A stretch of DNA of 64,000 nt, taken from contig LDWW01000002.1 of assembly GCA_001045525.1 (NCBI GenBank), positions 248,001-312,000 of the forward strand, read 5' to 3'. This DNA is from Chitinispirillum alkaliphilum. Its GTDB lineage: Bacteria; Fibrobacterota; Chitinivibrionia; Chitinivibrionales; Chitinispirillaceae. Positions 4,738-24,162 of this stretch are shown in pieces. The notes under the pieces were generated by a model that made no database searches, was not told the origin of the DNA, and saw only the letters and a program-made list of their open reading frames with translations. The position numbers and the translations under genes were made by a program. Numbering within the stretch: the stretch's first letter is position 1; the number at the start of each line of letters is the position of its first letter.

Positions 4738-4761
4738 TTTCCTTTGTTTTCGATTCTCAAT

Positions 4762-5454: not shown

Positions 5455-5470
5455 TTTGACGCTCCGCCTT

Positions 5471-6691: not shown

Positions 6692-6708
6692 AACCCCCCG
6701 CTTACAAA

Positions 6709-7929: not shown

Positions 7930-8681
7930 TATCTTATCTGCCGCATATTTTGCTGGGAGAAAAACCCCTGATCAAGAGGGATATCAAATTCGACATCATC
8001 ATACACCATAACAGTTCTGTGTCCCTCCTCTTCAAGCGGGACCATCTCCCAGCGCGTGGGAATCAACCTCCCTCCCATCTCCCGTACATCCTCAAGGTAC
8101 AGGAGATTAACAAGCACCCCATCCTCATCGTAAAATTCAGAGCGTCTTTGAATGAAGTTTTCTTTTATGACCCACACCACGACTCTTTCCCATACAACGG
8201 GAGCCTGAGGTTTTGGAACCATCTCTATTCGCCACGCCTCTTCCCCGTCAACGACAGTATCAGGCAAAAAGGAGTGGGTGTAATCATCAACAACGGAAGC
8301 ATCCCGTACAAGATCATCGTTTGTGAAGTCAGATCCCATCCAGGACTGGTTCATCATTGAGGGGGGTATTCTCACCACTCGCTGAATATCCGGCACCCAT
8401 TGCCACACCTCATCTCTTCGTTTTAGAAATGATGTTCCTCTGTCTCTTGCAGGAGATAACACATAAATGAGAGAGAAATCCCTTCCTTTGGTATATGCGC
8501 GCAAAGACATTTCTCTTGTCCACCTTGGACGTTCTATGCGCATAGTAAGTTCGGTACGGCTTGTCTCCCCTCTTATCTGCTGGTCAGCTCTTCTTATCAC
8601 CTCCTGAGCATCCATGGCAGAAGCAGGGTTTAGGAAAACCGCTAAAACGATTAAAATCAGATATAGCTTGCAATTTTGCAT
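7929..8681 (-). CDS. LolA-like outer-membrane lipoprotein-sorting protein
   Basis: 250 residues. The N-terminus is a clear signal peptide (VFLNPASA|MDAQ). The mature part starts AQEVIRRADQQIRG and continues with TELTMRIERPRWTREMSLRAY, SLIYVLSPARDRGTSFLKR and WQWVPDIQRVVRIPPSMM. This is the pattern of the COG2834/PF17131 LolA-like family, a periplasmic half-barrel that carries lipids or lipoproteins. GGAGGG upstream supports ATG 8681. It is the first gene of a five-gene operon with two FtsX permeases, an ATPase and an outer-membrane barrel, so it is the likely soluble shuttle between them. It is not canonical LolA, which is shorter and not linked to such an operon. Confidence 0.87.
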   Translation of the reverse strand: MQNCKLYLILIVLAVFLNPASAMDAQEVIRRADQQIRGETSRTELTMRIERPRWTREMSLRAYTKGRDFSLIYVLSPARDRGTSFLKRRDEVWQWVPDIQRVVRIPPSMMNQSWMGSDFTNDDLVRDASVVDDYTHSFLPDTVVDGEEAWRIEMVPKPQAPVVWERVVVWVIKENFIQRRSEFYDEDGVLVNLLYLEDVREMGGRLIPTRWEMVPLEEEGHRTVMVYDDVEFDIPLDQGFFSQQNMRQIR

Positions 8682-10236: not shown

Positions 10237-11136
10237 CTAATCCCAATTGGAATAGGGACGTGCCTGGGTAACACGCTTGAAATCGAGATATTCTTTTGTT
10301 ATTATCAAAGAGTTATCTGAAGTAAGTTTTTGAGTAACTATATTGATATACTGATCTGTCAAACCCCTACCTACAAAGTAATTGCTTCTTACTGAAAAGC
10401 TCTTCGAAATCTGTGTCACTTCCCCACCCTTTTGGTCTTCCCAGTGTAAATGATAATATGATTTCAGTTCGACTCCATTTCTGTACGGCTGATCGTTTAC
10501 CCTATAAGGGGTCAACTCAGTTGCGATGGTCTTTGTTGGAGTTGTAAAACCGCTGAAGGCAATATTAGGTGATATCTCTGATATAATAAAAGGAAGTAAC
10601 GGAAATGAGTTCCATTTATTATCAGATGTAGCAAGAGTATCATAGTATCCTACATCATAGTATCTTGGTACCACTCTTTGATAGATTTTGTCTATCTTTA
10701 CATCTCTGTCCGAGTTAAAATATGAAAGTTGATATACACCGCTGTCGGTGACGCTTAATAGATTTGTGAATTCATGTTCCTCAATTACATCATCAATTTT
10801 AACTTTTGTCAGGAATTGTTTTGGGAAAAGTGTAAACCTCTCACCATCAAAATATACGGATGTATCAGGATGTGTAACACTCCTGAAATGGGTTGTACCG
10901 GAAATGACTGTATCAAGATACCCGTTTGTTATTACAGTACACCTGTACACGCCTTGCAGAATTGCAGTGTCACCGGGCACAATAACGAAGTAGCGATCAT
11001 TGACACGTGTGTTAAACTCTTCGCTTTCTCCTGGATTAAACTCGGATTCTGAGACACTCAGCATTTCAGGATAATTGCAAAAGAGTAAAAATCCAACAGA
11101 TATCAATACCATTAACATAATTTTTTTAATTATCAT
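10237..11136 (-). CDS. Unknown exported protein, possible lipoprotein
   Basis: 299 residues, not recognised. It begins MIIKKIMLMVLISVGFLLFC, a hydrophobic leader ending in Cys 20; the lipobox (LLFC) is imperfect, so a lipoprotein is possible but not sure. The rest is rich in beta-forming residues, with many T, V, Y and D and no enzyme motif. It is the last gene of the NicO-headed run and lies 43 bases after a second lipoprotein-like gene. It probably acts in the periplasm or at the outer membrane together with the barrels encoded upstream. Confidence 0.6.
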   Translation of the reverse strand: MIIKKIMLMVLISVGFLLFCNYPEMLSVSESEFNPGESEEFNTRVNDRYFVIVPGDTAILQGVYRCTVITNGYLDTVISGTTHFRSVTHPDTSVYFDGERFTLFPKQFLTKVKIDDVIEEHEFTNLLSVTDSGVYQLSYFNSDRDVKIDKIYQRVVPRYYDVGYYDTLATSDNKWNSFPLLPFIISEISPNIAFSGFTTPTKTIATELTPYRVNDQPYRNGVELKSYYHLHWEDQKGGEVTQISKSFSVRSNYFVGRGLTDQYINIVTQKLTSDNSLIITKEYLDFKRVTQARPYSNWD

Positions 11137-11179
11137 AACTCTGTAAACCTCTGATTATTAAGGCAAACAATTAACAGAT

Positions 11180-12517
11180 CTAATTTACCGCTTCCGTCTC
11201 AATAGTCTCCTCATACACTGCAACCGTACCATCCGGATAGGTTTTCTGAATCACGGTAGCGCTGTTGAAGCGTTCCATTATACCCATTTGAGAAACCAGG
11301 GGAGAAATTCTGAAAGTGTATGTCTGTTCAATTTTTCCTTTGAACTCAACTATTTCCCCGTTTTCAAAAGTAGATCCCTGGATTGGATAATACATAGTGA
11401 GATCATAAACAAGAGAATTTTTTCTTGAACTTAGCTCCCTGTTTTTGAATGTAACAGCCTGGGTTGCCACTGTGTAATTGCAGAGTTCGATGTTTGGCAG
11501 AAAGTAATTTTCAGAAAAAAGCATAGGTGTGACACTCCATGCTTTTCCTTCAAAGAAAACTTTGTCAGCAAGCTTTGTCTCTTTTGTGAACCTTAGTCCG
11601 GTATTGTTTCTGTACGCAAACTGCATCTGAGTAAAAGAGTTAATGCCTAAGTACCTTGTCGCCTTTTTGGGAGGAATAAGGTCATTTTGGGTATATTGTT
11701 CAAACTCAACACTATATATCTGGTACACGGCCAAATTGTCGCTGAAAACTTTGCGTAAAGGTGTACCTGGGGTTCTTCGCATGCCATAGTCGACGAATTC
11801 CCTGAACAGATCTAAATTAAACCACTGTAATTTGGCTTTCTCAAATGGATTTAGTCCCTGCGAAACAGTTCCGCTTGTGTCTGAAAAAATACCCTGTACT
11901 ACAAGATCTTCAACTCTTTCTCTGTACGCAAGAGACAAGTCAAACAGCTCGCCGTACAGGCTGTAAAAGTTAAGATCAAGTATTGCCCGGTTAATTACTT
12001 CCACAACAGTTTCTTTTTGTTCTGATGTAATTTCCCGGTATTCCGAAATTTCTTCAATGATAGCATTATATTCCGCTGTATCAAGCTGATCTTCTATTAT
12101 TTTCCTCATTACACCATTTTCATGACCCATAAAAGTAACGAAAGTACTCCAGTCAGAAGTATCAGCTATTAATAGGTAAGGCTCTCCGATAACAGATCCA
12201 TCTCTGGTGAGTATAGTATCCCTCTTTGCCCCGATCTTAAAGAATACAGAATCCTCCTTAAGACCATCAGTAATAGTATCCTCACCATCAATAAACGATG
12301 TTTTCACTTTAGTGATACCAGCAAAATTGATATCATTTTCGAAATTAAAAATGGTTCGAACTTCTGAACCGAGGTTATTTGGGGTTCGTGAATAATTGAA
12401 ATTCCCTGAATAACTCACCCCATCATCAATCCAGTTACAATTGACTCCTCCAATAACCAGAAGAGCGAGAAATCCTATACTGAATAAAGCACCAGAATTC
12501 TTTTTAATTTTTTTCAT
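11180..12517 (-). CDS. Unknown exported protein, probable lipoprotein
   Basis: 445 residues, not recognised. The leader is MKKIKKNSGALFSIGFLALLVIGGVNC, positively charged then hydrophobic, ending in Cys 27; the residue before Cys is Asn, so the lipobox is unusual. The mature part mixes predicted beta strands with a helical stretch around residues 150-230 (EEISEYREITSEQKETVVEV). Its ATG overlaps the stop of the preceding repeat-barrel gene by four bases (ATGA), so the two are translationally coupled and may act together. No enzymatic motif is visible. Confidence 0.65.
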   Translation of the reverse strand: MKKIKKNSGALFSIGFLALLVIGGVNCNWIDDGVSYSGNFNYSRTPNNLGSEVRTIFNFENDINFAGITKVKTSFIDGEDTITDGLKEDSVFFKIGAKRDTILTRDGSVIGEPYLLIADTSDWSTFVTFMGHENGVMRKIIEDQLDTAEYNAIIEEISEYREITSEQKETVVEVINRAILDLNFYSLYGELFDLSLAYRERVEDLVVQGIFSDTSGTVSQGLNPFEKAKLQWFNLDLFREFVDYGMRRTPGTPLRKVFSDNLAVYQIYSVEFEQYTQNDLIPPKKATRYLGINSFTQMQFAYRNNTGLRFTKETKLADKVFFEGKAWSVTPMLFSENYFLPNIELCNYTVATQAVTFKNRELSSRKNSLVYDLTMYYPIQGSTFENGEIVEFKGKIEQTYTFRISPLVSQMGIMERFNSATVIQKTYPDGTVAVYEETIETEAVN

Positions 12518-14040
12518 AGATAGAACCTTATTCCTGAAGTCACAGGGAAGTAGCGAATTTTGCTTTCTGTACGCATCGGTCTGCTGTATCTGTTTTCGGT
12601 GGTAAAATAGGCATACCTTACTCCCGCATCAAAGTACATGAATCCATATCCGAATTCAAACTGAATCCCTGCACTTCCACCAAGAAACACCTGTGTACGT
12701 CTTCTGTAATTTGTAATATCCCTGTTTTCTATTGTTTTTTGATTCAGATAAGCACCGTCATCAAATGAGACAAATGTTTCTCTAATCCTTTTCTGTCCGG
12801 CAGACAAAAGATAAACAGGCTCTGCAGAACCGTATATATAGGTGGAAACTACTCTCCCAAGCGGAATTTTCAGCCCTAAATCAAAAGGTACAGCAAAATA
12901 GGAGAGCATCTCTTCACTTTGAGTTGTAACCTCCATATTGATGATATCAGGAGAGCTGAATTCAGTCAGATAATGAAAACGCATATACTTGACAGACAGC
13001 CTGGTGAAGAGGTATTCACGAAACGGTACTTTAAGCCCTACTGAAAACTGTGCATCACCCCTGCTCTTTGATCCTATATGATCTGGTACTAAATCATAAA
13101 TTTGTGCAAATGATGCCCCTGCAGATATATCCAAAAGAAGATCAAAGGACCAGTGGTCATCTTCTATAAGCGATACCTGAGGTTGTGCTGCACCGGTAAT
13201 AAAAGGATTGAACACCTCTTCGGTTTGCTCATCTTCAGCCTCCTCATCATCACCGGAGGGCTGATACCCGGTTTGAAAAACCGACACATCAGTCTCTGTT
13301 TCGCTCCCCTGCTGAGCTGCAAAGGGATTAATATGACTGTCCTGTCCTGTAAGCGTTCCTTTTTGAGCTGCTTCAACTTCCTGCCCTGATACGTACTCCT
13401 CATCACCGACCTGAGCATCTGCCTCTGTATAGGTATCGACAAGTTCAGAGTCCGGTTCCTTTTCCTGAACATCTGCTTCTGTATAGGTATCGACAATTTC
13501 AGAGTCCGGTTCCTTTTCCTGAGCATCTGCCTCTGTATAGGTGTCGACAATTTCAGAGTCCGGTTCCTCTTCCTGAACATCTGCCTCTGTATAGGTATCG
13601 ACAAGTTCAGAGTCCGGTTCCTCTTCCTGAGCATCTGCCTCTGTATAGGTATCGACAAGTTCAGAGTCCGGTTCCTCTTCCTGAGCATCTGCCTCTGTAT
13701 AGGTATCGACTATTTCAGAGTCCGGTTCCTCTTCCTGAGCATCTGCCTCTGTATAGGTATCGACAAGTTCAGAGTTCGGTTCCTCTTCCTGAGCATCTGC
13801 CTCTGTATAGGTATCGACAATTTCAGAGTCCGGTTCCTTTTCCTGAGCATCTGCCTCTGTATATAAAGACGCAGTTAACTCTTCGTTTTCCTGTTCAGTT
13901 TCAGACGGAATCGTTTTTTCCGAAGTATTTTCAATTTCAGCCTCTCTCTTGGCCGAATCCATTTCACTGTTCTGAACCTCACCAAATGAGACAACCGCAC
14001 ATGCAGTTACCATAATTATGCATTTTTTTAAGATAGTCAT
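12514..14040 (-). CDS. Outer-membrane-type protein with acidic tandem repeat and C-terminal beta-barrel
   Basis: 508 residues in three parts. A signal peptide (about 1-20, ACAVVSFG) is followed by an acidic linker with eight copies of an 18-residue unit of the form DTYTEADAQEEEPDSELV (about residues 60-210). A C-terminal half follows from about 290, with alternating strands ending in SGIRFYL, which looks like an 8- to 10-stranded barrel. The linker is Glu/Asp-rich with no Cys and is probably extended. No family is recognised for the repeat. The gene overlaps the next lipoprotein gene by four bases. An overlapping reading frame across the repeat is a by-product of its periodicity. Confidence 0.7.
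   Translation of the reverse strand: MTILKKCIIMVTACAVVSFGEVQNSEMDSAKREAEIENTSEKTIPSETEQENEELTASLYTEADAQEKEPDSEIVDTYTEADAQEEEPNSELVDTYTEADAQEEEPDSEIVDTYTEADAQEEEPDSELVDTYTEADAQEEEPDSELVDTYTEADVQEEEPDSEIVDTYTEADAQEKEPDSEIVDTYTEADVQEKEPDSELVDTYTEADAQVGDEEYVSGQEVEAAQKGTLTGQDSHINPFAAQQGSETETDVSVFQTGYQPSGDDEEAEDEQTEEVFNPFITGAAQPQVSLIEDDHWSFDLLLDISAGASFAQIYDLVPDHIGSKSRGDAQFSVGLKVPFREYLFTRLSVKYMRFHYLTEFSSPDIINMEVTTQSEEMLSYFAVPFDLGLKIPLGRVVSTYIYGSAEPVYLLSAGQKRIRETFVSFDDGAYLNQKTIENRDITNYRRRTQVFLGGSAGIQFEFGYGFMYFDAGVRYAYFTTENRYSRPMRTESKIRYFPVTSGIRFYL
13411..13860 (-). repeat. 54-bp in-frame tandem repeat, eight full units
   Basis: Unit starts recur every 54 bases from 13411 to 13843 (CTGAGCATCTGCCTCTGTAT as written on the plus strand). 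Units differ by a few bases, mainly swapping Glu/Lys, Ile/Leu, Asp/Asn and Ala/Val codons. All are multiples of three, so copy-number change would alter the length of the acidic linker without a frameshift. Confidence 0.95.
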
Positions 14041-14087
14041 ATTTTGCCCACATTGATTAACGATAAATGGAAATCATGTTTTTTATA

Positions 14088-14495
14088 TTAATGCAACCTG
14101 TGCAGATTCAAAATCGGCTCAACCATCTCGTGGTCAACTCCACAAGGAGGAAGCGCAGTAGAATCACAAGGTGTATCACATTTCTGGGTGCTTCTGCTCC
14201 TTGTGCGTCTTTCATTTCCGGTGAGGGTCAGATGACGAAACAAGGGGTTGAATTTTTTCACATCAAGCATCTCATTTGTAACGCCTTTTTCCAGATCCAG
14301 AAAAAATTGCCCATCAAGAGAACTCCCTATCTCATCTCCGGTTCCAGAAGGCACATACGGATCCGAAGAAGGAACAAATGGTATAACACCTCCACCGCAG
14401 GCAAAAGAGTTGCTTACAAATAAGGAAAAGGAAACGACAGCAGAGGCGATCATGATTTTGGTAACCCGATTTTTTATTTTAGAATTGCTAAACAT
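14088..14495 (-). CDS. Small exported Cys-containing protein, unknown
   Basis: 135 residues, not recognised. I start it at ATG 14495 because AGGAGG lies nine bases upstream; the earlier ATG at 14504 touches that site directly. The signal peptide runs to about SNSFA|CGGG. The mature protein has a Gly/Pro/Ser-rich start, a short helical middle, and a C-terminal region with four Cys (CDTPCDSTALPPCG plus the N-terminal one), which could form disulfides in the periplasm. It lies in the minus-strand run between two barrel genes with gaps of 16 and 47 bases. Confidence 0.6.
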   Translation of the reverse strand: MFSNSKIKNRVTKIMIASAVVSFSLFVSNSFACGGGVIPFVPSSDPYVPSGTGDEIGSSLDGQFFLDLEKGVTNEMLDVKKFNPLFRHLTLTGNERRTRSRSTQKCDTPCDSTALPPCGVDHEMVEPILNLHRLH

Positions 14496-14511
14496 TGAAA
14501 ACATCCTCCTG

Positions 14512-15720
14512 TCAATAAATCACATGCAGGTTAAGCCAATATCTTGATTTACTCATTGTGCGATCCTGCGGAAACTCTCTGTAGATAAAATCATATTGTG
14601 GTCTTATGCTTACATTTCTGTTAAGATTAAAAATCATGGTCATATCTCCCCTGATCTCTGTAGCACCCAGGGTTTCAGGTTCATTAGTCTCGGGTGAAAA
14701 CCCGATGACTTCATGAGAAGAGAGGTGTCTTGTGTAATCAAACAGAAGTCTGTACCCGAATCGTTCTGTGAAGTACTGATTTTCCCATCTGGTACTGAAC
14801 CTGAGCTTATGATAAGAGTTATGACCGAATACGTCATCAAAGTTTTTCTCATATTCGAAAACACCATCCCCGTATCCCCATCTGAAACTGTGTGTTCTCA
14901 TCCCAACTGCAGCCCCAAATCCCCTCTCCCTGAGAGGTGGGTTATCGGTTTTAAAGGACCCGTCAGCTGATCTTGCAGGAAGCTCATCATAGGTATTGTA
15001 GAAAACGTATGGAGAGATGAAAAGCTGTGTGAAAAAGGGAAGCAGATAAACTGTTTCCAGATCATATCTGTATATTGAATAATCGTTTCTGATCATCTCG
15101 ATTTCAGGATACAGTGTCATCTTCGGGCTTCCGAAATCATCATAAACGGTGGACCCATCAGGATTAGTCATAGGTACTTCACTGAAACCAACATTCATTG
15201 CATTGGGTTTCGAATAGATACTTCTGCCATAGGTAAATTTACTGTTAAAGAACAGATTGGGAGTCAGGAAAACGTACATGAACGGTCGAGCCCTGACCCT
15301 GAAATTTGAAGCTCTCTCAATATTTCCATTACTGTTAAAATAGGGCAAAAAGTCATAATTTGTATTTATCTCAACTCCCGGAGTCACAAGGGGATGTGCG
15401 AACCAGAAACTCTTGAGTACAGGATTAAGCGAAAGTGGATAGAAATCATTGGCTGCGGTTATTGAATGGTAGCGCTCCACAGACCCAAACAGACTGATTG
15501 TGTTTGCGAAATTACCAAAGGAAGGTAAATCTTTATCGAGAATTAACCTTACTGATGAAAATGTGGAATAATCATCGGGCTGCTCTCCAGGAATAAGATT
15601 AGTATACCCCACAGGGTTAAAATAGATCTCTATGGGATAAAAGGTAACAAACTGTGCATCAGCACCCGTTATCCACAGCAAAAAGAGCATCAGCTTAATA
15701 ATTAACGTTTTGCAAATCAT
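14512..15720 (-). CDS. Predicted outer-membrane beta-barrel protein, unknown
   Basis: 402 residues with a signal peptide (LFLLWITGADA|QFVTFYP). The mature part shows regular alternation of aromatic and polar residues with short turns rich in Asn, Asp, Gly and Pro (for example YSKPNAMNVGF, RWENQYFTERFGYRLLFDY), and ends LNLHVIY. This is the look of a barrel of roughly 14-18 strands. No named family is recognised. It is 36 bases after the FGE-like lipoprotein gene and 16 bases before the small Cys protein, so all three are probably co-transcribed. Confidence 0.68.
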   Translation of the reverse strand: MICKTLIIKLMLFLLWITGADAQFVTFYPIEIYFNPVGYTNLIPGEQPDDYSTFSSVRLILDKDLPSFGNFANTISLFGSVERYHSITAANDFYPLSLNPVLKSFWFAHPLVTPGVEINTNYDFLPYFNSNGNIERASNFRVRARPFMYVFLTPNLFFNSKFTYGRSIYSKPNAMNVGFSEVPMTNPDGSTVYDDFGSPKMTLYPEIEMIRNDYSIYRYDLETVYLLPFFTQLFISPYVFYNTYDELPARSADGSFKTDNPPLRERGFGAAVGMRTHSFRWGYGDGVFEYEKNFDDVFGHNSYHKLRFSTRWENQYFTERFGYRLLFDYTRHLSSHEVIGFSPETNEPETLGATEIRGDMTMIFNLNRNVSIRPQYDFIYREFPQDRTMSKSRYWLNLHVIY

Positions 15721-15756
15721 ATCTGTTCAGTCACCTGCAGTTAAATTGTTCTACCC

Positions 15757-16929
15757 TTAATCGATCACTCTGACAGTCCTGAAACCCACAAGGTCATTTT
15801 TGTTGGAAGGGGACATGGAAACCCTAAAGTCACTTGTAATGCTTTCCAGTTCATGATTAAAGGCTCCCCCTCTCAATACTCTCTGATTTCCTTGGATCGT
15901 ACCAGTGTAATCGATCCTTTTACCGGGTCTGTTGTAATCAATAATATCCCAGACAAACTCATTTACATTTCCAAGAATATCGTAGAGTCCCCATGGATTG
16001 GGGAGCTTTTGAGCAACAGGCTGGCGATCCCATACTTCATCAAGAATCCACCAAACATAATCACTTACCATAAGCGTGTCTTCTTGGCTCCACTCAACGA
16101 TCTCAAATCTGTCCGGTAAATCTTTACCCCAGAAAAAATCGGTGGTACTGCCCGCCCGGCATGCATACTCCCACTCATCTTCCGTAGGGAGTCTGAACCC
16201 GTTTGAATGAAGATCAAAGCGCAGATTTTGAAGATGGACAACGACACTATCGCCCGCCCCATAGAATACAGTATCATATATATAGCTTGTATCAAGACCC
16301 ATACTCTTACTCTTTACATTACAAAAAAGTACAGCTTCAAACCATGACACCTCAACTTTGGGAAGAAGCGATTGCGATTGACCATCACCCATGACCTGAT
16401 CCCAAAGCGCTTCGGTGACAGGAACAGAATCGATATAGAAATCATAGGTTATGGTAGCGATTTCGCCCTTTTTGGTCATAAAACTACCGGCCGGTACACG
16501 TACCATTTTGCCGAGAGTTTCACCGGTAATATCACCAGCTGTGACACTGTCGGTTTCAAAGGAGATAACACCACTTGATTTGCTTTCTGAGTAGCTGGAT
16601 GTAACAAGCTTTATATAATAGGTCTGTTGTGGTTCCAGACCTGTAATTTTTAAAGTTGTGTCATTTTTAAAATAGGTAACTTTGTAAGGCTGTACCTCAG
16701 AAGTAATTTCCGGCAAGGTATCAAAATAGAGACGGTAATCTCTGAAAAAATTGGAGGGTTCCTTATTCCAGACAAACTCAACGGCAGTGGGGTAAACGGT
16801 TCTGAGCTGAAGGTCCACCTCCTGAACAGGGAATTCCTTTTCGGCAGGTGACACATCAAGCAAGTCAACACAACCCCATATAAGCAAAACGGTTATAACA
16901 CACCAGATAACAAGATTTGTTTTTTTCAC
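15757..16929 (-). CDS. Lipoprotein with FnIII-like domain and FGE/SUMF1-like domain
   Basis: 390 residues. The lipobox LIWGC puts the lipidated Cys at residue 20. Residues about 35-130 look like a fibronectin-III-type domain (TAVEFVWNK, LKITGLEPQQTYYIKLVT). Residues about 140-390 are a formylglycine-generating-enzyme-type fold: MVRVPAGSFM, PVTEALWDQVMG, VSWFEAVLFCN, GFRLPTEDEWEYACRAG, GNVNEFVWD, RVLRGGAFN and GFRTVR. Real sulfatase-activating enzymes use a Cys pair near the C-terminus; here that stretch (SDFRVSMSPSNKNDLVGF) has none, so it is probably a structural or binding version. It follows the NicO gene after 28 bases. Confidence 0.85.
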   Translation of the reverse strand: MKKTNLVIWCVITVLLIWGCVDLLDVSPAEKEFPVQEVDLQLRTVYPTAVEFVWNKEPSNFFRDYRLYFDTLPEITSEVQPYKVTYFKNDTTLKITGLEPQQTYYIKLVTSSYSESKSSGVISFETDSVTAGDITGETLGKMVRVPAGSFMTKKGEIATITYDFYIDSVPVTEALWDQVMGDGQSQSLLPKVEVSWFEAVLFCNVKSKSMGLDTSYIYDTVFYGAGDSVVVHLQNLRFDLHSNGFRLPTEDEWEYACRAGSTTDFFWGKDLPDRFEIVEWSQEDTLMVSDYVWWILDEVWDRQPVAQKLPNPWGLYDILGNVNEFVWDIIDYNRPGKRIDYTGTIQGNQRVLRGGAFNHELESITSDFRVSMSPSNKNDLVGFRTVRVID

Positions 16930-16957
16930 CTGTTTTATATCTCCGGAAACTTAAAAT

Positions 16958-17878
16958 TCAGACTGCAGTCATTAAAATTCCTAAAATAAGTAAAATCACA
17001 CCACCACTGAACCTTGCCAGATAGGCCAATCTTGTAGCCACAGACTTCGAGAATACCTTAAAAGCCTTCTCCCGGGCAGTAATTACAAAGTACCCAACCG
17101 TAGTCACTGTTATCGCAGCCCCGATTGCCATACCAACAATAGCTATCAACCCCATAAAATAAACGCCATAAGAGATCGAAAACACCAGAACAATCCAGGC
17201 GATGGGACAGGGCACTATACCCGAGAGCACAGCCAGAGTATAAAAGGAGAGATTTTGAAATTTCTCCCTGAATTTTTCACTCGTAAATAAAGAGATACGC
17301 CCGCGCAGGAAATGAGCGATTACGAGTGCAAGACCGGTAACTATAACCAATACACCACCAATACGCCTTGAAACCTCAGCCATCTCCCGCTGTGACCCAA
17401 CACTAAGGTTATTTGTAACCAGATAGAGAAACAAGCTTAAAACAAAGGCCATCCCTATATGAGTTACCGAAACAATAATTCCTGCCAAAGCGGCATCCCT
17501 GGTTTTGCGATTCTCCTCAGAGGTTAGAAAATAGGTTCCCAATATCAGTTTTCCATGTCCAGGCCCGGCAGTGTGAAGCAGCGAATACCCCAGTGCGATA
17601 AGGAATATCAATAACGCTTGGCGCATTGAGAAATTCTCACTTAAGTCCTCTAAAGCAGTAGAGAGTTTGTTGTTAACCGCTCTCTGCCATATTACAATAG
17701 GATACCAGAAGGGAGGTTCCTGTATTTCAGAGGGTTTTCTTGAAATTTCGGAGGGTTCGCCCGATTCTGAATGAGAGGGTTGGGAGGGGGCAAGAAACGG
17801 GTTTTCCTGTTCCTGACCCTGGGCATAAAGGGAAAAACATAAGATCAGCATGTTCATTAAAAGCAGCACAGTTTTCAT
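16958..17878 (-). CDS. NicO-family nickel/cobalt (metal) permease
   Basis: 306 residues from ATG 17878. A signal-like first helix (LLLMNMLILCFSLYAQ) is followed by a periplasmic stretch of about 60 residues rich in Pro, Ser and Glu, then six or so membrane helices. The family motif HTAGPGHGK lies at about 102-110 and a second conserved block VPCPIAW at about 220-226; their His and Cys/Pro residues are characteristic of NicO/RcnA-type proteins (PF03824), which move Ni2+ or Co2+. Direction cannot be told. AGGGTG upstream supports this start; an ATG at 17923 has no site. It heads a seven-gene minus-strand run of envelope proteins. Confidence 0.82.
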   Translation of the reverse strand: MKTVLLLMNMLILCFSLYAQGQEQENPFLAPSQPSHSESGEPSEISRKPSEIQEPPFWYPIVIWQRAVNNKLSTALEDLSENFSMRQALLIFLIALGYSLLHTAGPGHGKLILGTYFLTSEENRKTRDAALAGIIVSVTHIGMAFVLSLFLYLVTNNLSVGSQREMAEVSRRIGGVLVIVTGLALVIAHFLRGRISLFTSEKFREKFQNLSFYTLAVLSGIVPCPIAWIVLVFSISYGVYFMGLIAIVGMAIGAAITVTTVGYFVITAREKAFKVFSKSVATRLAYLARFSGGVILLILGILMTAV

Positions 17879-18069
17879 ATTCACCCTATTTAATCGTTTT
17901 GAGAACATGTTATATCTCTTCATCCATAATAGTTATTATAATAAATTAATGCTATAAATTCAGAAAAAAGTTACCAAAGACCCCTAAAGTGCTAATTGCT
18001 TAGCGATTCCCAACTAATCCACACTCACTGTTTTCAAAAATTAACATCATTGCTTCCTACCAAAACAAA

Positions 18070-19704
18070 CTATAGCGCAGTTTTGTGTATAAACTCTGCC
18101 ACTCTCAGGGAATTGGCCATAATGGTAAATGTAGATGGCACAGGGATACCCGACGGCAGAAAACTTCCATCTGTACAGTAGAGGTTTTTCAAATCATGTG
18201 ATCTGCACTGGGGGTCAAGAACTGAATCTGCACTGTCCTCCCCTATACTGCAGGTCCCATGCTGCAATTCCCCTGAGGTGAAAGGTGATTCAGAGTAGGT
18301 CACAAACTCAGCCCCCATGACATTAAACAGCTTACTTAACCGTGCAGCCAAAACTCTTGATGCTCTCAGATTCTCCACATGTGGATTTATCTCAATCCTG
18401 GCAGAGGGAATCCCCCAGTAATCCCGTTGTTTTGCTGAAATCGTTACATGCGTTCTGTCGTTTGATAAAAATGGGATAAAAGTGTCAGTCTGAATATGGT
18501 TGTAGGAAAAATATTTCTTCAAAACCCTCTTCAGTGACTCGCCAACAACTCTGTTTCCCCTGTGATCATAAGAGAGCCTTATAGCACGGCTGATTGGATT
18601 TGGATGAGGCAGAATAAAAATCACACTTCCTCCCCTGGGATAAGCAATTGAGCTATCGGAAAGATCGCAGAGGGATTGAGTTGTTCTGCCGACAAAAAGT
18701 GATTCACAGTTTGCAGGAGAAGGAAAAAGGCCTTTGTCGAAGAATGCAGTTACTTCACAGGGAATATGGAGGTGGAGGTTTTTTCCTACCTGGCCGGATG
18801 AATTGGCCAGACCAATTGGCCAATCCTTTGATTTTGAATTGAGCAAGAGCCGGGCAGTTTCAATGCTGCTGCATGCAAGAATAAAGAGTTTTGCTTTTAG
18901 TTTACCGGGTAATCCATCGGGGCCAAAGAAATGTGCTGCTCTGATAGCCACTCTGTCTGCTTCCAGTTTATAGACAAAGTGCTGTGGTAAAAAGGTAAGG
19001 TTGTTATTTTTTCTCCCCTCAAAGAGATATGTTTCATATACATCACCCTTGGCACCAGTCAAACAGGCATAGCTGCCACACATTCCCGAATAGCTGCATT
19101 CACCCCTGTGTCCCTGTTTCCGGGAGAGGATCGCCTGCGGTGTGGTGAATGTGGTGTAACCCAGCTTGTTGCACCCCTTATCAATAATCGAGGCTGAAGG
19201 ATGGGTTTTCAGAGGTGCAAATTCATAGTTTTTCTTTCGTCCCGGCTCTGTTAAGGCATCCCCGCTTATCCCAATATCCCGTTCCACCCTGTCATAGAAT
19301 GGTTCAAGTTCCTCCAGACTCAGAGGCCAGTCTTTTACATCTGTGCCCCGTGGTGGTGGAAACAACACAGACGGTGTGAAGTCCTCTTTTCTCATACGCA
19401 GGAAAAAACCTGACATCACCCTTGTTCCTCCCCCACCGCAAACCGCACTCCAGAGGTGATTTGCACTCATTGGAGGCGAAGAGCCGTACACAAGCTCTCT
19501 GTTTCCTCTGAGCCTGTCGGGTCTGAACCCCGGCCTGTGGCAGGTGTCAAGCTCGTCTTTTTTAACTTGTTCCGGGGCAATTTCATCCCCTTTCTCCAAA
19601 ACAGCAACCGAATATCCCTTTTGGGCGAGGTATGCTGCCAGTGGAGCTCCTCCTGCACCGCTGCCGATTACACAAACATCATAATTCCCTGCAGTTCTAA
19701 ACAT
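18070..19704 (-). CDS. GMC-type FAD-dependent oxidoreductase, large catalytic subunit
   Basis: 544 residues. The N-terminal FAD-binding motif GSGAGG is at about 14-19 followed by VAVLEKGD. It has GNRELVYGSSPPMSANHLWSAVCGGGG, the GMC substrate/FAD region, and the C-terminal signature HGTCSIGEDSADSVLDPQCR...NLYCTDGSFLP...PSTFTIMANSLRVAEFI with the catalytic-region His. A cluster of three closely spaced Cys (CSYSGMCGSYACLTGAK, roughly residues 204-220) resembles the iron-sulfur-binding segment of three-subunit FAD glucose/gluconate dehydrogenases. No signal peptide is seen; in such enzymes the small subunit carries the Tat signal for the complex. It overlaps the small-subunit gene by eight bases. 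Substrate unknown, probably a sugar or alcohol. Confidence 0.86.
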   Translation of the reverse strand: MFRTAGNYDVCVIGSGAGGAPLAAYLAQKGYSVAVLEKGDEIAPEQVKKDELDTCHRPGFRPDRLRGNRELVYGSSPPMSANHLWSAVCGGGGTRVMSGFFLRMRKEDFTPSVLFPPPRGTDVKDWPLSLEELEPFYDRVERDIGISGDALTEPGRKKNYEFAPLKTHPSASIIDKGCNKLGYTTFTTPQAILSRKQGHRGECSYSGMCGSYACLTGAKGDVYETYLFEGRKNNNLTFLPQHFVYKLEADRVAIRAAHFFGPDGLPGKLKAKLFILACSSIETARLLLNSKSKDWPIGLANSSGQVGKNLHLHIPCEVTAFFDKGLFPSPANCESLFVGRTTQSLCDLSDSSIAYPRGGSVIFILPHPNPISRAIRLSYDHRGNRVVGESLKRVLKKYFSYNHIQTDTFIPFLSNDRTHVTISAKQRDYWGIPSARIEINPHVENLRASRVLAARLSKLFNVMGAEFVTYSESPFTSGELQHGTCSIGEDSADSVLDPQCRSHDLKNLYCTDGSFLPSGIPVPSTFTIMANSLRVAEFIHKTAL

Positions 19705-20227
19705 GGAACCACTCTTTTCTGATAAAACCCTCCATCACTTGCCAGGAAGAGTACTCACTGTTACCTCCGTGCATCGGGTCACAAAAGCACCCCTCAAGAG
19801 TGAAATCGATGAACTTGTTTAAATCTGTTCTGGAAACAGGCAAGTCTCCGTTAAAAAGGTCTGACAAGAGTGCCTGACGCTCATTTTTCCCGATACGGCA
19901 GAATGGTTTCATGAAGGCTGTACGTGAAGATTTTTCCAAAACGGAGCAAATCTGCCTTATGGATTGATAATAATGAAGATTGTGATCATCCCTTAGCTGT
20001 CTCTTAAAAAATTCTCTTATACCCAGTTCTTTGGCTCCGGGGGTGCTACCGGAGGGATACACATACCGGGCTGCAAATGCTGCGATATCCAGTTCATTAT
20101 CGGAGATAAAGCCACTCAGGCGCAGCCGGTTAAACCACCCGGATATTCTATGAGCAGGCGCGAATATGCAAAAACCGGCAAAAGAGAGTGACATTGCAAC
20201 AAAACTGCGTCTTTTCATTTTATGCAT
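19697..20227 (-). CDS. Gluconate 2-dehydrogenase subunit 3-like small subunit with Tat signal
   Basis: 176 residues. The start MHKMKRRSFVAMSLSFAGF contains a twin-arginine pattern (KRRSFVA) before a hydrophobic stretch. The C-terminal TLEGCFCDPMHGGN matches the conserved block of gluconate 2-dehydrogenase subunit 3 (PF13618), where the usual text is close to EGFFGDPxYGGN. In this family the small subunit carries the Tat signal and takes the folded flavoprotein to the periplasm. It overlaps the GMC gene by eight bases and the preceding membrane-protein gene by eight. ATG 20227 or 20218 could be the start; AAGGA lies at workable distance for the first. Confidence 0.82.
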   Translation of the reverse strand: MHKMKRRSFVAMSLSFAGFCIFAPAHRISGWFNRLRLSGFISDNELDIAAFAARYVYPSGSTPGAKELGIREFFKRQLRDDHNLHYYQSIRQICSVLEKSSRTAFMKPFCRIGKNERQALLSDLFNGDLPVSRTDLNKFIDFTLEGCFCDPMHGGNSEYSSWQVMEGFIRKEWFHV

Positions 20228-21041
20228 CTATGCGGTCCTTTGAGCTCTCCATTTGCACAGTTTGTCTTTTAGTGAGGTATAATAAAAAAAGCTGCAGTAT
20301 AAGAACTGCGAAGGTGACAATTACAGCACCTCTGCTTAAACGTAAAAGAATGGCTAACGTCTCCCGGGTTTGCTGATCTGAGAGAAAAAAAGTCAATCCG
20401 ACTCGCTTTAAAACTGTCAGGTATGCAACAGACCCGAAAAACAGTACAGCCGTAAACAGCCCATATCCTGCAACCAGATTTTTGTGCTCAAAACTCATAT
20501 CAAACATTCTGCTTTTTACCATTTTGTACAGAATGACAGACAGTGCAGCCGGAAACAGAAAAAACTGCATCGCATACACTCTTACGATTAAAAGCTGATC
20601 TGAAGCAAATAATACACTCTGTTGGGGTGATTCTCCAAAAAGGGAAAAAATCAATGAAACAGAAAAGGGTGTAAGAGAAAACAAACTGAAAAGACAGAGA
20701 TCTAAAACAATTGAAACTGTAAGTAATAAAAGAAGGTGAAAAGCCCACACCGAGACCGAAACCGGCTTTTTTTTCAGAACACGCAAACCGAAGAGAATCA
20801 GTTTTGATAACAATGCCAAAAAGAGAATCAGCATTGAAAAAATGTATACGGATAACACAAGAGGTCCGGCGTAAACAGAGGTGAGAAAATGGTTCAGTGA
20901 CAACCGGAACAGATTATTTGCGGGCACCACATGGAGAGCCGTTATAAATCCGCTTATAATCATTGTCAGCGCGCTGTAACAAATCAAATAGTCCGGCAGG
21001 TTTTCTTTTCTGATTGAACTGAACATGTTGCTATTTGCCAT
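20220..21041 (-). CDS. Multi-span membrane protein of the Rieske/GMC operon, unknown family
   Basis: 273 residues with about seven hydrophobic helices and short charged loops; not recognised. It lies 14 bases after the Rieske gene and overlaps the small-subunit gene, so it must be expressed with them. His residues occur in or near helices (ITALHVVPANN, LSLNHFLTS, WAFHLLLLL), which would allow heme or quinone binding, but no canonical cytochrome b pattern is visible. From position I infer a membrane anchor that passes electrons from the exported dehydrogenase and Rieske protein to the quinone pool. A role in the metal importer is the alternative. Confidence 0.65.
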   Translation of the reverse strand: MANSNMFSSIRKENLPDYLICYSALTMIISGFITALHVVPANNLFRLSLNHFLTSVYAGPLVLSVYIFSMLILFLALLSKLILFGLRVLKKKPVSVSVWAFHLLLLLTVSIVLDLCLFSLFSLTPFSVSLIFSLFGESPQQSVLFASDQLLIVRVYAMQFFLFPAALSVILYKMVKSRMFDMSFEHKNLVAGYGLFTAVLFFGSVAYLTVLKRVGLTFFLSDQQTRETLAILLRLSRGAVIVTFAVLILQLFLLYLTKRQTVQMESSKDRIDA

Positions 21042-21055
21042 TTGTCAAACCTGAA

Positions 21056-21490
21056 TCATCCTTTATACCTGAAAGTTTTCTCAACCGGCTTTGACAGATC
21101 TGCTATAAGGGCCCCTCTGCCAAAAGTTGCTATATGGTAATGCCTGAGATTTTCCTGTGCAGGCCCTCTGATTACCTCTCCGCAGAGAGTGAACTGAGCC
21201 CCATGACAGGGGCAGCTAAAGCTTTTATCATCAACCAAAAGTACACAATTACGATGTGTGCATAAGGCACTTATGGCATAAAGCCCCTCTTTGTCATTTA
21301 TGACATAGAAGTCATGACTTCTGAAATAGGTGATCTCCCTTTTCTTCAACTCCTCAATGCTGCCGATTGGGACTTTGTGGGATTGCGGTCTGAAGGAAAA
21401 GATATTTTTGAGATGCCAGGCAGCATACCCAAACCATACGACACCAAGCAATGACAGTACGTCGTGAATAAAGCTTCTTCTTGAAATCAT
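21056..21490 (-). CDS. Rieske [2Fe-2S] protein with Tat-type signal anchor
   Basis: 144 residues from ATG 21490. The start MISRRSFIHDVLSLLGVVW is a twin-arginine signal followed by a hydrophobic anchor. The cluster-binding motifs CTHRNC (about 89-94) and CPCHGAQF (about 105-112) give the two Cys and two His ligands. The protein is exported and has the length of small Rieske subunits. Its ATG overlaps the stop of the metal permease gene (ATGA), a translational coupling that decides the start; a longer reading from 21538 would overlap the permease by 50 bases. It is probably the electron carrier between the GMC dehydrogenase and the membrane protein. No cytochrome b or c1 gene accompanies it. 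Confidence 0.9.
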   Translation of the reverse strand: MISRRSFIHDVLSLLGVVWFGYAAWHLKNIFSFRPQSHKVPIGSIEELKKREITYFRSHDFYVINDKEGLYAISALCTHRNCVLLVDDKSFSCPCHGAQFTLCGEVIRGPAQENLRHYHIATFGRGALIADLSKPVEKTFRYKG

Positions 21491-22329
21491 GATCTGTTTT
21501 TTGTCAAAATTCTTTTCCATACAGACCACAACGCGCACACTGTTAACAAGGAGATTATTATTATTGGAGCAGGAGGAAGATCAACGACAATTGACATACC
21601 AAACCCGGCAAAAACACTAAGCACAGAAACCGCTACGGCAACCATCAGAAAGGAATCCAGTCCGCGGCTCCTTTTTTCAATCAAAAAAGGTGGCAGTATC
21701 AGCATTGATGCTGTAAGCAGAGGACCAACCAGGATTATCGAACCGGTTATCACAAGTACAGTAATTACTCTGTATACATTCAGTATGAGTTTATAATAGT
21801 GCTGCTTGACAGCCAATTGCTGCTGGTCGAGGCAAAGAGCGTAAACCGCACCTCTGAAAGAGAAAAACAGCAGTGAAAAAAAAGTGCAGCACACAAGGGT
21901 GAAAATAAGCTCTGAAGATGTAACCGCAAGCATCTCTCCCTGCAGCAGGTAATGGAAACGTGACTCAGCATGTCCGGACATTGCCATAAAAAAGATGGTA
22001 AAAGCATTGGCACCACAAAACAGTGCAGCAAGAGTCTGTTCCCTGCGTCTTATTGAAGAAATCTGAGCCTGTTTATCAGGCATGAAATAGAGCATCAAAA
22101 GCAGGCCACCCGCAGTAATCAGATAAAGGGAAACAGTTGAATCGGGCGAGACCCCCAGAAAAATCGCTATGGCCATAACCGCAGTTCCAAGCGGGGGCAG
22201 GGCAATGCCAAGAAGGATTTCATTTCTGAGTGAAAGTGTCGTACCGATTGCCGGAAGCATCAGTGCAAACGTCAAAACCGTAAGAAGCGGAATAACAGAA
22301 AAGGAGAGAGTAAAGAGAAAATCACTCAT
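21487..22329 (-). CDS. ABC-3 family metal permease (ZnuB-like)
   Basis: 280 residues with eight or nine hydrophobic helices. The family pattern is seen in the middle (FHYLLQGEMLAVTSSEL) and in the late VLVITGSIILVGPLLTASMLILPPFLIEK, close to the conserved VGxLLVxALLIxPAA of ZnuB/MntB-type permeases. It should form the membrane channel of a zinc- or manganese-type importer with the ATPase encoded four bases into its 5' end and the binding protein upstream. Its stop overlaps the Rieske start, which links metal import to the redox genes in one transcript. Confidence 0.82.
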   Translation of the reverse strand: MSDFLFTLSFSVIPLLTVLTFALMLPAIGTTLSLRNEILLGIALPPLGTAVMAIAIFLGVSPDSTVSLYLITAGGLLLMLYFMPDKQAQISSIRRREQTLAALFCGANAFTIFFMAMSGHAESRFHYLLQGEMLAVTSSELIFTLVCCTFFSLLFFSFRGAVYALCLDQQQLAVKQHYYKLILNVYRVITVLVITGSIILVGPLLTASMLILPPFLIEKRSRGLDSFLMVAVAVSVLSVFAGFGMSIVVDLPPAPIIIISLLTVCALWSVWKRILTKNRS

Positions 22330-22949
22330 ACGAGCACCCCGCCCGCTACATCATATACTTTGGCAAATCGTTCCCAGCTCTGGGTGTGGGTGACAGCGAT
22401 AATTCCAATCTTTTTATTTTTTAACAGATCCAAAAGAATAGTTTCAACCATATCTGCAGCCAAGCGATCAGCATAAACGGTAGGTTCGTCCAGTAGTAAA
22501 ACTTCCGGTGAACCCATAAGAGCTCTTGCAATCAAAACTCTTCTTCTCTGTCCTCCTGAGAGATTGCTGTATTTACAATCAGCCTTATCAGAAAGCCCCA
22601 GCAGTTTTAATGTGTTGGCAGCTTCTTTTTTGGATTTTTTCCATGCAAACGGAGAAGCAGTTCTGACGATATCAATGGCTGTGGCAGGAGTGTCGTGATC
22701 GAGATGAGATTCCTGGGGGACATAGCCTATTTTTTCCCGCTTAATACTGAGCTGCACCCTGCCTTCAATCAGTTCTGCTATACCAAGGATACCTTTTATA
22801 ATGGTGCTTTTACCACATCCGTTTTGCCCCGACAGCACCACACACTCTCCCCCTGAAAGCGTTACATTCACCCCCTGCACCACTCTCTTTAACTTACCCG
22901 ATGAAGAGTATCCAAAAGATGCATCTCTGACATTAATTAAATGACTCAC
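22326..22949 (-). CDS. Metal ABC transporter ATP-binding protein (ZnuC-like)
   Basis: 207 residues. Walker A GQNGCGKST at 41-49, Q-loop VPQESH at about 77-82, signature LSGGQRRR at 130-137, Walker B VLLLDEP at 150-156 and the H-loop VTHT are all present. It is slightly shorter than typical ZnuC (about 250). It overlaps the permease gene by four bases (ATGA) and the binding-protein gene by four, so the three importer genes are translationally coupled. Confidence 0.87.
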   Translation of the reverse strand: MSHLINVRDASFGYSSSGKLKRVVQGVNVTLSGGECVVLSGQNGCGKSTIIKGILGIAELIEGRVQLSIKREKIGYVPQESHLDHDTPATAIDIVRTASPFAWKKSKKEAANTLKLLGLSDKADCKYSNLSGGQRRRVLIARALMGSPEVLLLDEPTVYADRLAADMVETILLDLLKNKKIGIIAVTHTQSWERFAKVYDVAGGVLV

Positions 22950-23848
22950 TGACCTTCAGCTCTCCTTAATGCTTTGAGAATAATGTCGAGATTATAATGC
23001 TGCAGTTCAATAAATGTTTGAACTTCCTCTCTTGATTTGACCATATTGGCAAAACGGACTGCAGGCACACCCAATCTTTGTGCGATATTCTCCGGAAGCC
23101 GCGGGTTTTGTGCCTGATGGAAGAGCACCAATTGCGCATTCTCATCTATACCTCTCTGAGTGATATAGGCAAGATGGCGGGAATTAGGTGCTACCCCGGG
23201 GATTATCTCAATCGTGCCAATCAGCTCCATTCCATAATAATCAAAAAAATAGGACATATCGGCATGATAGGTAATCACAGCAACACCCTCGAGTTCACGG
23301 CCCTTCTCGAGCAGTTCGGTTTCCATCTGCACGAGAAGGGCAATATACCTTTTATAATTAGCTGTGTAGTAATCGGTATTTTGTGGGTCAACTCTGCAGA
23401 GTGCATCATATATGTTCCGGGCCATTATTCTGCCGCTCTGAGGACCACTGTTTACGTGGGGGTTTCCATGTATGTGATTTCCGGCGTGAGTCAGCTGATC
23501 GGGATCGGGCTTTTCCAATATATCCATCCCTTCATGTGCCTCGACCCACCCTGGTGCTCCTCTTTTCACCCCGTTATTGCGGGAAGCATTTACAATATTG
23601 ACAAACCAGCGATCCTCAGCCCCAAGTCCAAGCGAAATCACCAGGTGCGCCCTGTTAATGGCGGGGATAAAGGAGGAACGGGCTCTGACCACATGAACAT
23701 CTTCGGTTCCACGTGCAAGAGACTGCACCGAAACCGCCTCACCTCCAATATTGCGGGTTATGTCGGCCAGGTCAGGTATTGAAGTTACTACATTGACCTG
23801 CGCAAAAAGGATGTTTGCCAGACAAAGTATAAAGAGCATATTTCTCAT
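22946..23848 (-). CDS. Periplasmic metal-binding protein of the ABC importer (ZnuA-like)
   Basis: 300 residues with a signal peptide (LFILCLANILFA|QVNVVTSIPD). It matches the cluster A-I binding proteins (PF01297): VVTSIPDLADITRNIGGE, then DVHVVRARSS where the first metal-ligand His is expected, a His-rich loop HAGNHIHGNPHVN (about 123-135), and YHADMSYFFDYYGM. The His loop suggests zinc. It is the first gene of the seven-gene operon that ends with the GMC flavoprotein. I see no clear Zur- or MntR-type palindrome in the 300 bases upstream, so regulation is unresolved. Confidence 0.87.
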   Translation of the reverse strand: MRNMLFILCLANILFAQVNVVTSIPDLADITRNIGGEAVSVQSLARGTEDVHVVRARSSFIPAINRAHLVISLGLGAEDRWFVNIVNASRNNGVKRGAPGWVEAHEGMDILEKPDPDQLTHAGNHIHGNPHVNSGPQSGRIMARNIYDALCRVDPQNTDYYTANYKRYIALLVQMETELLEKGRELEGVAVITYHADMSYFFDYYGMELIGTIEIIPGVAPNSRHLAYITQRGIDENAQLVLFHQAQNPRLPENIAQRLGVPAVRFANMVKSREEVQTFIELQHYNLDIILKALRRAEGQ

Positions 23849-24003: not shown

Positions 24004-24032
24004 TTGATTTTCTTTCAATTATTGTATATTAT
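24004..24032 (+). promoter_or_regulatory. Candidate sigma-70 promoter for the 24163 gene
   Basis: TTGATT, a 17-base spacer and TATTAT lie about 130 bases before the start codon in an AT-rich stretch. It sits in the 314-base gap 23849-24162, which otherwise holds only a short inverted repeat (CTGAAA/TTTCAG near 24065). Confidence 0.35.
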
Positions 24033-24162
24033 TATACATACATAGCGGGATAATCCGGAGTTGCTGAAATTTTCAGATGCCATAATACGTAATCAGATTG
24101 GATTTAAAACCGGTAGTTTCAAAATGTCGCGGTACCCCATATCATTCAAACAGGAGGCTTAA

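Follow-up and report, generated by a model that had tools for sequence, protein, structure and literature searches.

The window, as we call the stretch of 64,000 nucleotides analysed here (Chitinispirillum alkaliphilum, contig LDWW01000002.1, positions 248,001–312,000; host genome of 4.43 Mb in 160 contigs), carries on its minus strand a cluster that joins genes for an ATP-binding cassette (ABC) metal importer to genes for a Rieske protein, a membrane protein and a flavoprotein of the GMC family. An earlier sequence-only reading had described seven genes in this order, which the open reading frames (ORFs) and Pfam matches confirmed. The spacing within this half, from the ZnuA gene to the GMC gene, was −4, −4, −52, +14, −8 and −8 bases, in line with the overlaps and gaps of at most 14 bases given by that reading. 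Candidate starts of the Rieske gene are GTG 21538, ATG 21520 and ATG 21490, the last of which would reduce its overlap with the ZnuB gene from 52 to 4 bases. BLASTP between cluster proteins revealed that the cluster exceeds these seven genes: following a gap of 146 bases, seven further genes on the same strand (10237–17923) are part of the same conserved cluster, yielding 14 genes between 10237 and 23848 (Table 1).

Table 1 Features of the cluster in the window. G021, G063 and G065 are three other Fibrobacterota genomes; percentages are amino acid identities, scores are in bits.
Feature	Position	Strand	Basis
Weak candidate operator TGTATAATAATATACA, upstream of the first gene	24023–24038	−	14 of 16 positions palindromic
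ZnuA/AztC-type periplasmic metal-binding protein	22946–23848	−	PF01297 161; AztC 94.9, below curated cut-off 350
ZnuC/AztA-type ABC ATPase	22326–22949	−	PF00005 104; AztA 118.9 against cut-off 220
ZnuB/AztB-type ABC permease	21487–22329	−	PF00950 61; 47% and 49% to the G065 and G021 matches
Membrane-anchored Rieske 2Fe-2S protein with RR motif	21056–21538	−	PF00355 52
Divergent cytochrome b6-like membrane protein	20220–21041	−	Profile of homologues; window copy alone without Pfam match
Gluconate 2-dehydrogenase subunit 3 family protein with twin-arginine motif	19697–20227	−	PF13618 49.7
GMC flavoprotein	18070–19704	−	PF05199 55, PF00732 41; catalytic His/Asn replaced by Leu480/Pro523
NicO-family metal transporter	16958–17923	−	PF03824 38.9; 44% to the G021 NicO protein
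Probable lipoprotein bearing a SUMF1-like FGE-sulfatase domain	15757–16929	−	PF03781 120; 37% to a G021 cluster protein
Probable outer-membrane β-barrel protein, 402 residues	14512–15720	−	Fold inferred by eye; homologues in G021 (43%) and G063 (34%)
Cluster-conserved, probably secreted protein, 138 residues	14088–14504	−	Homologues in G021 (44%) and G063 (37%)
Protein with acidic repeats followed by a barrel-like domain, 508 residues	12514–14040	−	PF13505 20, below cut-off 28.7; homologues in G021 and G063
Cluster-conserved probable lipoprotein, 445 residues	11180–12517	−	Homologues in G021 (27%) and G063 (25%)
Probable lipoprotein, last gene of the unit, 299 residues	10237–11136	−	Homologues in G021 (27%) and G063 (28%)

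Homologous clusters were found in two other Fibrobacterota genomes, G021 and G063, along with a fragment in G065. A profile search placed this Rieske type in 4 of 167 genomes of the phylum, the window's own included; among 150 genomes these four scored 253–267 bits versus at most 53 bits elsewhere, and rows at or below 53 bits were excluded from the count. The close ZnuB type (45–49% identity, with at least 45% as the threshold and 22 of 25 ZnuB rows, at or below 33%, left out) occurs in 3 of the 150 genomes, namely the window's, G021 and G065, always inside the cluster and in all three with the Rieske gene. PF13618 and GMC proteins were each detected in 3 of the 150; neither was found in G065 (68% complete), probably because the contig ends. 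Of the 14 proteins encoded by the window cluster, 12 have a BLASTP match at the G021 cluster locus (contig C232), where the NicO match lies in an adjoining stretch and the b6-like protein was matched through alignment and profile, not by BLASTP. Gene order varies between the genomes. Six genes separate ZnuB and Rieske in G021; in G063 (contigs C191 and C150) the redox genes are accompanied by the barrel-like gene and four small ones; the G065 fragment (contig C432) comprises genes for a Gate-domain protein, ZnuC, ZnuB and the Rieske protein, and breaks off with its contig inside the b6-like gene. Importer and Rieske genes nonetheless share one cluster across three genera, with ZnuB and Rieske overlapping in the window and 39 bases apart in G065. 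As had been proposed, importer and redox half thus form one conserved unit, and as far as the 150 genomes go the importer was not found mostly without its redox half in relatives. Recurrence of the cluster, whole or in part, in three further genomes led us to reject a chance neighbourhood.

The cluster is a new variant assembled from known parts, rare and so far seen in four genomes, all of them Fibrobacterota. It is also patchy: neither the Rieske type nor PF13618 nor the GMC had a match in a genus-mate of the host (G045, 97% complete), a pattern that probably reflects gain or loss inside the host genus. Used alone as the query, the window b6-like protein matched 4 of the 150 genomes at E 0.01, missing G021 and including in G045 a stop-containing match at chance level. 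A wider contig scan returned three loci, among which was a Chitinophagaceae GMC of 22% identity; the peptide patterns used were narrow, so that spread outside the Fibrobacterota is poorly covered. In G063 (contig C150, L010, 1159–3846) the GMC gene is followed on the same strand by two Sdh_cyt subunits and an FAD_binding_2 flavoprotein.

The importer half resembles ZnuABC and AztABC in combining a substrate-binding protein (SBP) with an ATPase and a permease of the cluster A-I type. Within the SBP, the metal-site residues H52, H131, H195 and N268 were invariant in seven aligned homologues. Three His are the zinc pattern of such proteins, and Glu at the third place is the manganese pattern; with three His as in ZnuA/AztC, and not the Glu of manganese proteins, the site is predicted to be zinc-type. 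The window system differs from ZnuABC/AztABC in that Asn replaces the Asp ligand, the NCBIfam cut-offs for AztABC are not reached, and the genes are embedded in a redox cluster. A second likeness, by composition alone, is to ZevAB of Haemophilus influenzae, which we take to consist of NicO and DUF1007 proteins: in G021 a DUF1007 gene adjoins the NicO gene beside the cluster, whereas the window has NicO only. Excerpts of two reports describe ZevAB as a zinc system (PMC3872050, PMC10563805).

The multi-span membrane protein of the sequence-only reading (273 residues) can be named more precisely. The window copy has no Pfam family match, and a profile of this protein with its three homologues matched cytochrome b6 chains of the PDB (7r0w, E 5.3e-12) and, more weakly, cytochrome b chains; for PF00033 (cut-off 27.2 bits) the G065 copy scored 46.5 bits, the G063 copy 20 and the G021 copy 10.5. 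By sequence comparison the protein is a divergent cytochrome b6 homologue, and the module accordingly comes from a Rieske/cytochrome b complex. We aligned the copies with two ordinary cytochromes b and inspected the columns that we take to hold the His pairs of haems bL and bH. The bL pair is His/His in G021 and G063, His followed by a position not reached in the G065 fragment, and Tyr/Gln in the window; the bH pair is Lys/Met in the window, Asn/Val in G021, Phe/Leu in G063, and Asn with the second position not reached in G065. All four haem His are consequently lost in the window, where the ligand columns read Y, K, Q and M and where none of the four His present (37, 51, 102 and 186) aligns to helix B or helix D. 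The C-terminal half with the PWYF/PEWY (Qo) motif is absent from the aligned b6-like proteins, and among the cluster proteins scanned no other match to a cytochrome b or subunit IV family appeared.

The Rieske protein carries an RR-x-F motif, SRRSF. Its bc-type signature C-x-H-x2-C ... C-x-C-H, together with the disulphide Cys, was invariant in all four sequences. By contrast, the Ser and Tyr positions that raise the potential were Ala and Phe in each of the four copies, versus Ser in all seven comparison Rieske proteins and Tyr in three of them, including the bc-type protein of G055. Single mutants of the yeast Rieske protein are listed in excerpts of PMC12954380 with shifts of −130 mV for loss of the Ser and −65 mV for loss of the Tyr. 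Based on these replacements, a lowered potential of the cluster Rieske protein is likely, not certain.

Subunit 3 likewise exhibits its RR-x-F motif (KRRSF). For the GMC protein, the nearest PDB chains are FAD-glucose dehydrogenase (6a2u, 8hdd; FAD, flavin adenine dinucleotide) and also fructose dehydrogenase. In the glucose dehydrogenase BcGDH, Cys212, Cys218 and Cys222 are described as binding the 3Fe-4S cluster and His476/Asn519 as the residues likely to act in catalysis (excerpts of PMC6719666). The FAD motif is conserved in the aligned copies, and C203, C209 and C214, which match the three Cys by sequence with a spacing one residue off (x5-x4 versus x5-x3), are kept in all four clade members: the window, G021, G063 and a Sulfurospirillum plasmid homologue of 38% identity. 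In these same four proteins the catalytic pair is Leu/Pro, while the aligned Mesorhizobium and Paenibacillus GMCs keep His/Asn. The plasmid sample consisted of the best 25 of 464 records with a GMC match, from which Sulfurospirillum, Mesorhizobium, Paenibacillus and Deinococcus were examined, the Deinococcus GMC lying outside the alignment. The working GMC dehydrogenase assumed by the sequence-only reading is not supported, the His/Asn pair being gone in the window copy and in the three homologues found to be closest to it; on these residues the protein is unlikely to be an ordinary dehydrogenase of sugars or alcohols. The Sulfurospirillum plasmid (L080, NZ_CP118374.1 148116–173756; 11531–13674) has its GMC/subunit 3 pair, of this Leu/Pro type, a few genes from msrP, a ferric-reductase-like gene and the genes of a two-component system, from all of which the pair is divergently oriented.

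Known complexes that share these parts differ from the cluster in several respects. FADGDH of Burkholderia cepacia and FDH of Gluconobacter likewise combine a GMC protein with a PF13618 subunit 3 that bears the twin-arginine motif, and share the three-Cys motif; the window cluster differs in having Leu/Pro for His/Asn and a Rieske and b6-like protein instead of the cytochrome c subunit. An ordinary GMC dehydrogenase as the leading reading was rejected because the catalytic pair is absent. The bc1 and b6f complexes share the bc-type Rieske protein with its disulphide Cys and the adjacent b6-like membrane protein, but differ in the bH ligands, lost in the copies seen, and the bL ligands, lost as well in the window, in their PEWY/PWYF half, in a cytochrome c partner, which the cluster lacks, in the Ser/Tyr pair replaced here, and in having no GMC flavoprotein joined to them. 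An ordinary Rieske/cytochrome b complex was rejected because the haem ligands that define it are missing, as is the Qo half.

We also analysed the respiratory setting of the hosts. No CxxCH motif occurs in the 14, 14, 9 and 5 cluster ORFs (at least 90 residues) of the four loci, the rest of the genomes not having been searched for a partner. The proposal that a Rieske protein and a membrane anchor replace the cytochrome c subunit stands to the extent that both lie at its place and the cluster has no CxxCH protein; the dehydrogenase function is not supported. PF13631 cytochrome b was found in none of eight genomes, the four hosts included (PF00033 was not searched), and cytochrome bd turned up in one of the eight, which was not among the four hosts. 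MenD and MqnC were each above cut-off in none of the eight, and UbiA-family prenyltransferase genes were above cut-off in all of them.

Catalytic, haem-binding or potential-tuning residues are lost in three of the four redox subunits. These losses, combined with the kept cofactor residues of the flavoprotein and the Rieske protein and with the co-travel with the importer, suggest that electron transfer was retained and its chemistry changed. The explanation that we tentatively favour, plausible if short of probable, is one conserved metal-acquisition cluster with a repurposed, periplasm-facing electron-transfer complex that would serve metal acquisition. The ABC importer, the NicO transporter and the outer-envelope proteins would be made together with the GMC protein, subunit 3, the Rieske protein and the b6-like anchor, and the complex would no longer be a sugar dehydrogenase nor a quinol:cytochrome c enzyme. 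Its electron chain may comprise FAD, the GMC iron–sulphur cluster, the Rieske cluster, probably at lowered potential, and haem bL where present, and a periplasmic redox step might free or condition the metal, or its ligand, for the importer, most simply by reducing or oxidising a metal ligand; we prefer a reductive role. The genetic link between importer and redox half is strong, the chemistry is what we infer, and in our judgement a complex serving the importer fits better than an importer supplying the complex. Possible, though doubtful, is a redox-driven uptake in which a Rieske/b6 complex minus one or both haems, joined by gene order to a GMC protein that no longer oxidises alcohols, would deliver or withdraw periplasmic electrons and so strip metal from its ligand where the zinc-type ABC importer opens, in bacteria whose drafts yielded no ordinary Rieske/cytochrome b complex. 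If true, a Rieske/cytochrome b complex would have been recruited from energy conservation into metal nutrition, losing haems en route, and a GMC flavoprotein would have turned electron carrier. The cluster would then offer a concrete case of redox chemistry in bacterial zinc-type uptake and, with one haem site in the relatives and none in the window, a natural series for a Rieske complex without a Q cycle.

Several observations weigh against this explanation. Zinc is not redox-active, so that a redox step would need a ligand or another metal. The best-scoring solved chain for the SBP, 5hx7, is a manganese protein with Asp as the fourth site residue, where all seven homologues have Asn, and the Gate-domain gene at the G065 cluster, FeoB-like with FeoB_C below cut-off, would suit iron. 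Regarding the Rieske protein, Phe occurs with a kept Ser in four of the seven comparison proteins, an ordinary bc-type protein (L088) and three from plasmids, the Aureibacter bc-type protein being among the four; with Ser in all seven, Ala is the telling change and Phe is not. Kustd1480, a Ser/Phe protein, is moreover given at +335 mV in excerpts of PMC12954380, and potentials thus cannot be derived from sequence. The Asn column of the GMC protein is Ala in fructose dehydrogenase, which makes the loss of the His the stronger point. Structure models were too poor for use, with a predicted local distance difference test (pLDDT) score of 29.8 for the GMC protein and 48.5 for the b6-like protein, so the structure-prediction check suggested by the sequence-only reading yielded no usable model of the latter. 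Finally, the four host genomes are drafts (68–99% complete), and G063 (an 82% complete draft with contig ends) gave no ZnuB match at E 1e-5.

Among the alternatives, we regard it as unlikely that importer and redox genes respond to one signal, such as a lack of zinc or stress to the envelope, and otherwise have separate functions with no joint biochemistry. The six genes between ZnuB and Rieske in G021 and the differing gene orders agree with co-regulation, nor do the FGE-like lipoprotein and the barrel proteins point to a single machine; the close spacing of ZnuB and Rieske in the window and G065, however, and the cluster shared by importer and Rieske in three genera despite the changes of order speak against it.

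The original proposal, a periplasmic membrane-bound sugar or alcohol dehydrogenase whose Rieske and membrane proteins pass electrons to quinone, with the importer supplying or sensing the metal, appears quite unlikely. GMC and PF13618 proteins, FAD motif and three Cys together make up the FAD-glucose/fructose dehydrogenase architecture, the lack of CxxCH proteins among the cluster ORFs and the bL pair kept in G021 and G063 agree with it, and succinate dehydrogenase/fumarate reductase-type genes lie downstream in G063. Against this stand the Leu/Pro replacement in three Fibrobacterota copies and the Sulfurospirillum homologue, a window b6-like protein devoid of haem ligands, and a quinone supply for which MenD and MqnC were missing above cut-off in all eight genomes, albeit with UbiA-family genes in each. 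Least probable, and in our view improbable, is a decayed scaffold or sensor in which the two Cys and two His of the Rieske site bind zinc and the b6-like and GMC parts hold the protein at the membrane: it would explain the lost haem ligands and catalytic residues, and crystals of the Rieske-type protein PetA with Zn in it have been reported (excerpts of PMC10492824), but the FAD motif, the three GMC Cys and all six Rieske Cys/His are conserved in the aligned copies, and cofactor binding thus seems to be under selection.

The favoured metal-acquisition explanation can be set beside a Rieske cassette of plasmids. In one Cyanobacteriota and one Actinomycetota plasmid (L084, 2747–5438; L085, 3678–6417) we observed the order multicopper oxidase, ZIP-like transporter, Rieske, the oxidases being 45% and the ZIP proteins 42% identical. 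Of the 15 top-scoring plasmid Rieske rows, 13 had a metal transporter among the features at the match, and all 13 came from Rhodococcus or Chroococcidiopsis; the sample covered the best 60 of 146 records with a Rieske match, of which seven were examined, one of them without annotation. Other contexts were a bc-type operon in Aureibacter and DUF2231 in Phycisphaera, and no metal transporter was among the annotated neighbours of the Aulosira Rieske gene. The cassette of the Rhodococcus and Chroococcidiopsis plasmids is like the window cluster in that the Rieske gene overlaps a metal transporter gene, but has ZIP in place of an ABC importer, a multicopper oxidase in place of the GMC protein and, in the stretches examined, no cytochrome b; unrelated as a cassette, it may serve as a loose parallel. 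Our literature searches brought up no description of the window cluster: none gave a paper in which Rieske stood alongside all the terms joined to it (GMC, subunit 3, ZnuA, cytochrome b, ZIP), and none of the papers listed for multicopper oxidase and ZIP looked relevant by title and opening of the abstract.

A second importer type, with ZnuB 30–33% identical, forms a separate operon in five genomes, the window's own (G000, contig C67), G035, G079, G047 and G067. In G000 (L072, 139–4863) it comprises genes for a small His-rich protein, a His-containing lipoprotein, a barrel-like protein, ZnuA, ZnuC and ZnuB, and similar operons occur in the four relatives, the His-rich and barrel-like proteins having been recognised by eye. 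These stretches, two of them short contigs, contained no ORF of at least 90 residues matching the window Rieske, b6-like, subunit 3 or GMC proteins, so the redox link appears, as far as seen, confined to one importer type. The candidate palindrome upstream of the ZnuA gene is AT-rich and was considered as a Zur-box candidate; comparing the operons established no shared upstream motif. Promoter and terminator scans were near shuffled sequences (39 versus 28.7 ± 5.2 and 15 versus 12.8 ± 4.1, respectively). The G+C content of the cluster (0.427) is about that of the window (0.439), giving no sign of recent transfer.

Among the outer-envelope proteins, the FGE-domain lipoprotein has in addition a weak fn3 match (18.3 bits, below the cut-off of 25), and the 402-residue barrel-like protein is without Pfam match. 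The N-terminal half of the 508-residue protein contains about eight near-identical acidic repeats (TEADAQEEEPDSE-like), of which we saw none in the homologues from G021 and G063. Further along the minus strand, positions 3559–8681 of the window encode an ABC ATPase, two proteins that look permease-like by eye, a LolA-like protein and a sub-threshold DUF1302 protein, perhaps an envelope export system.

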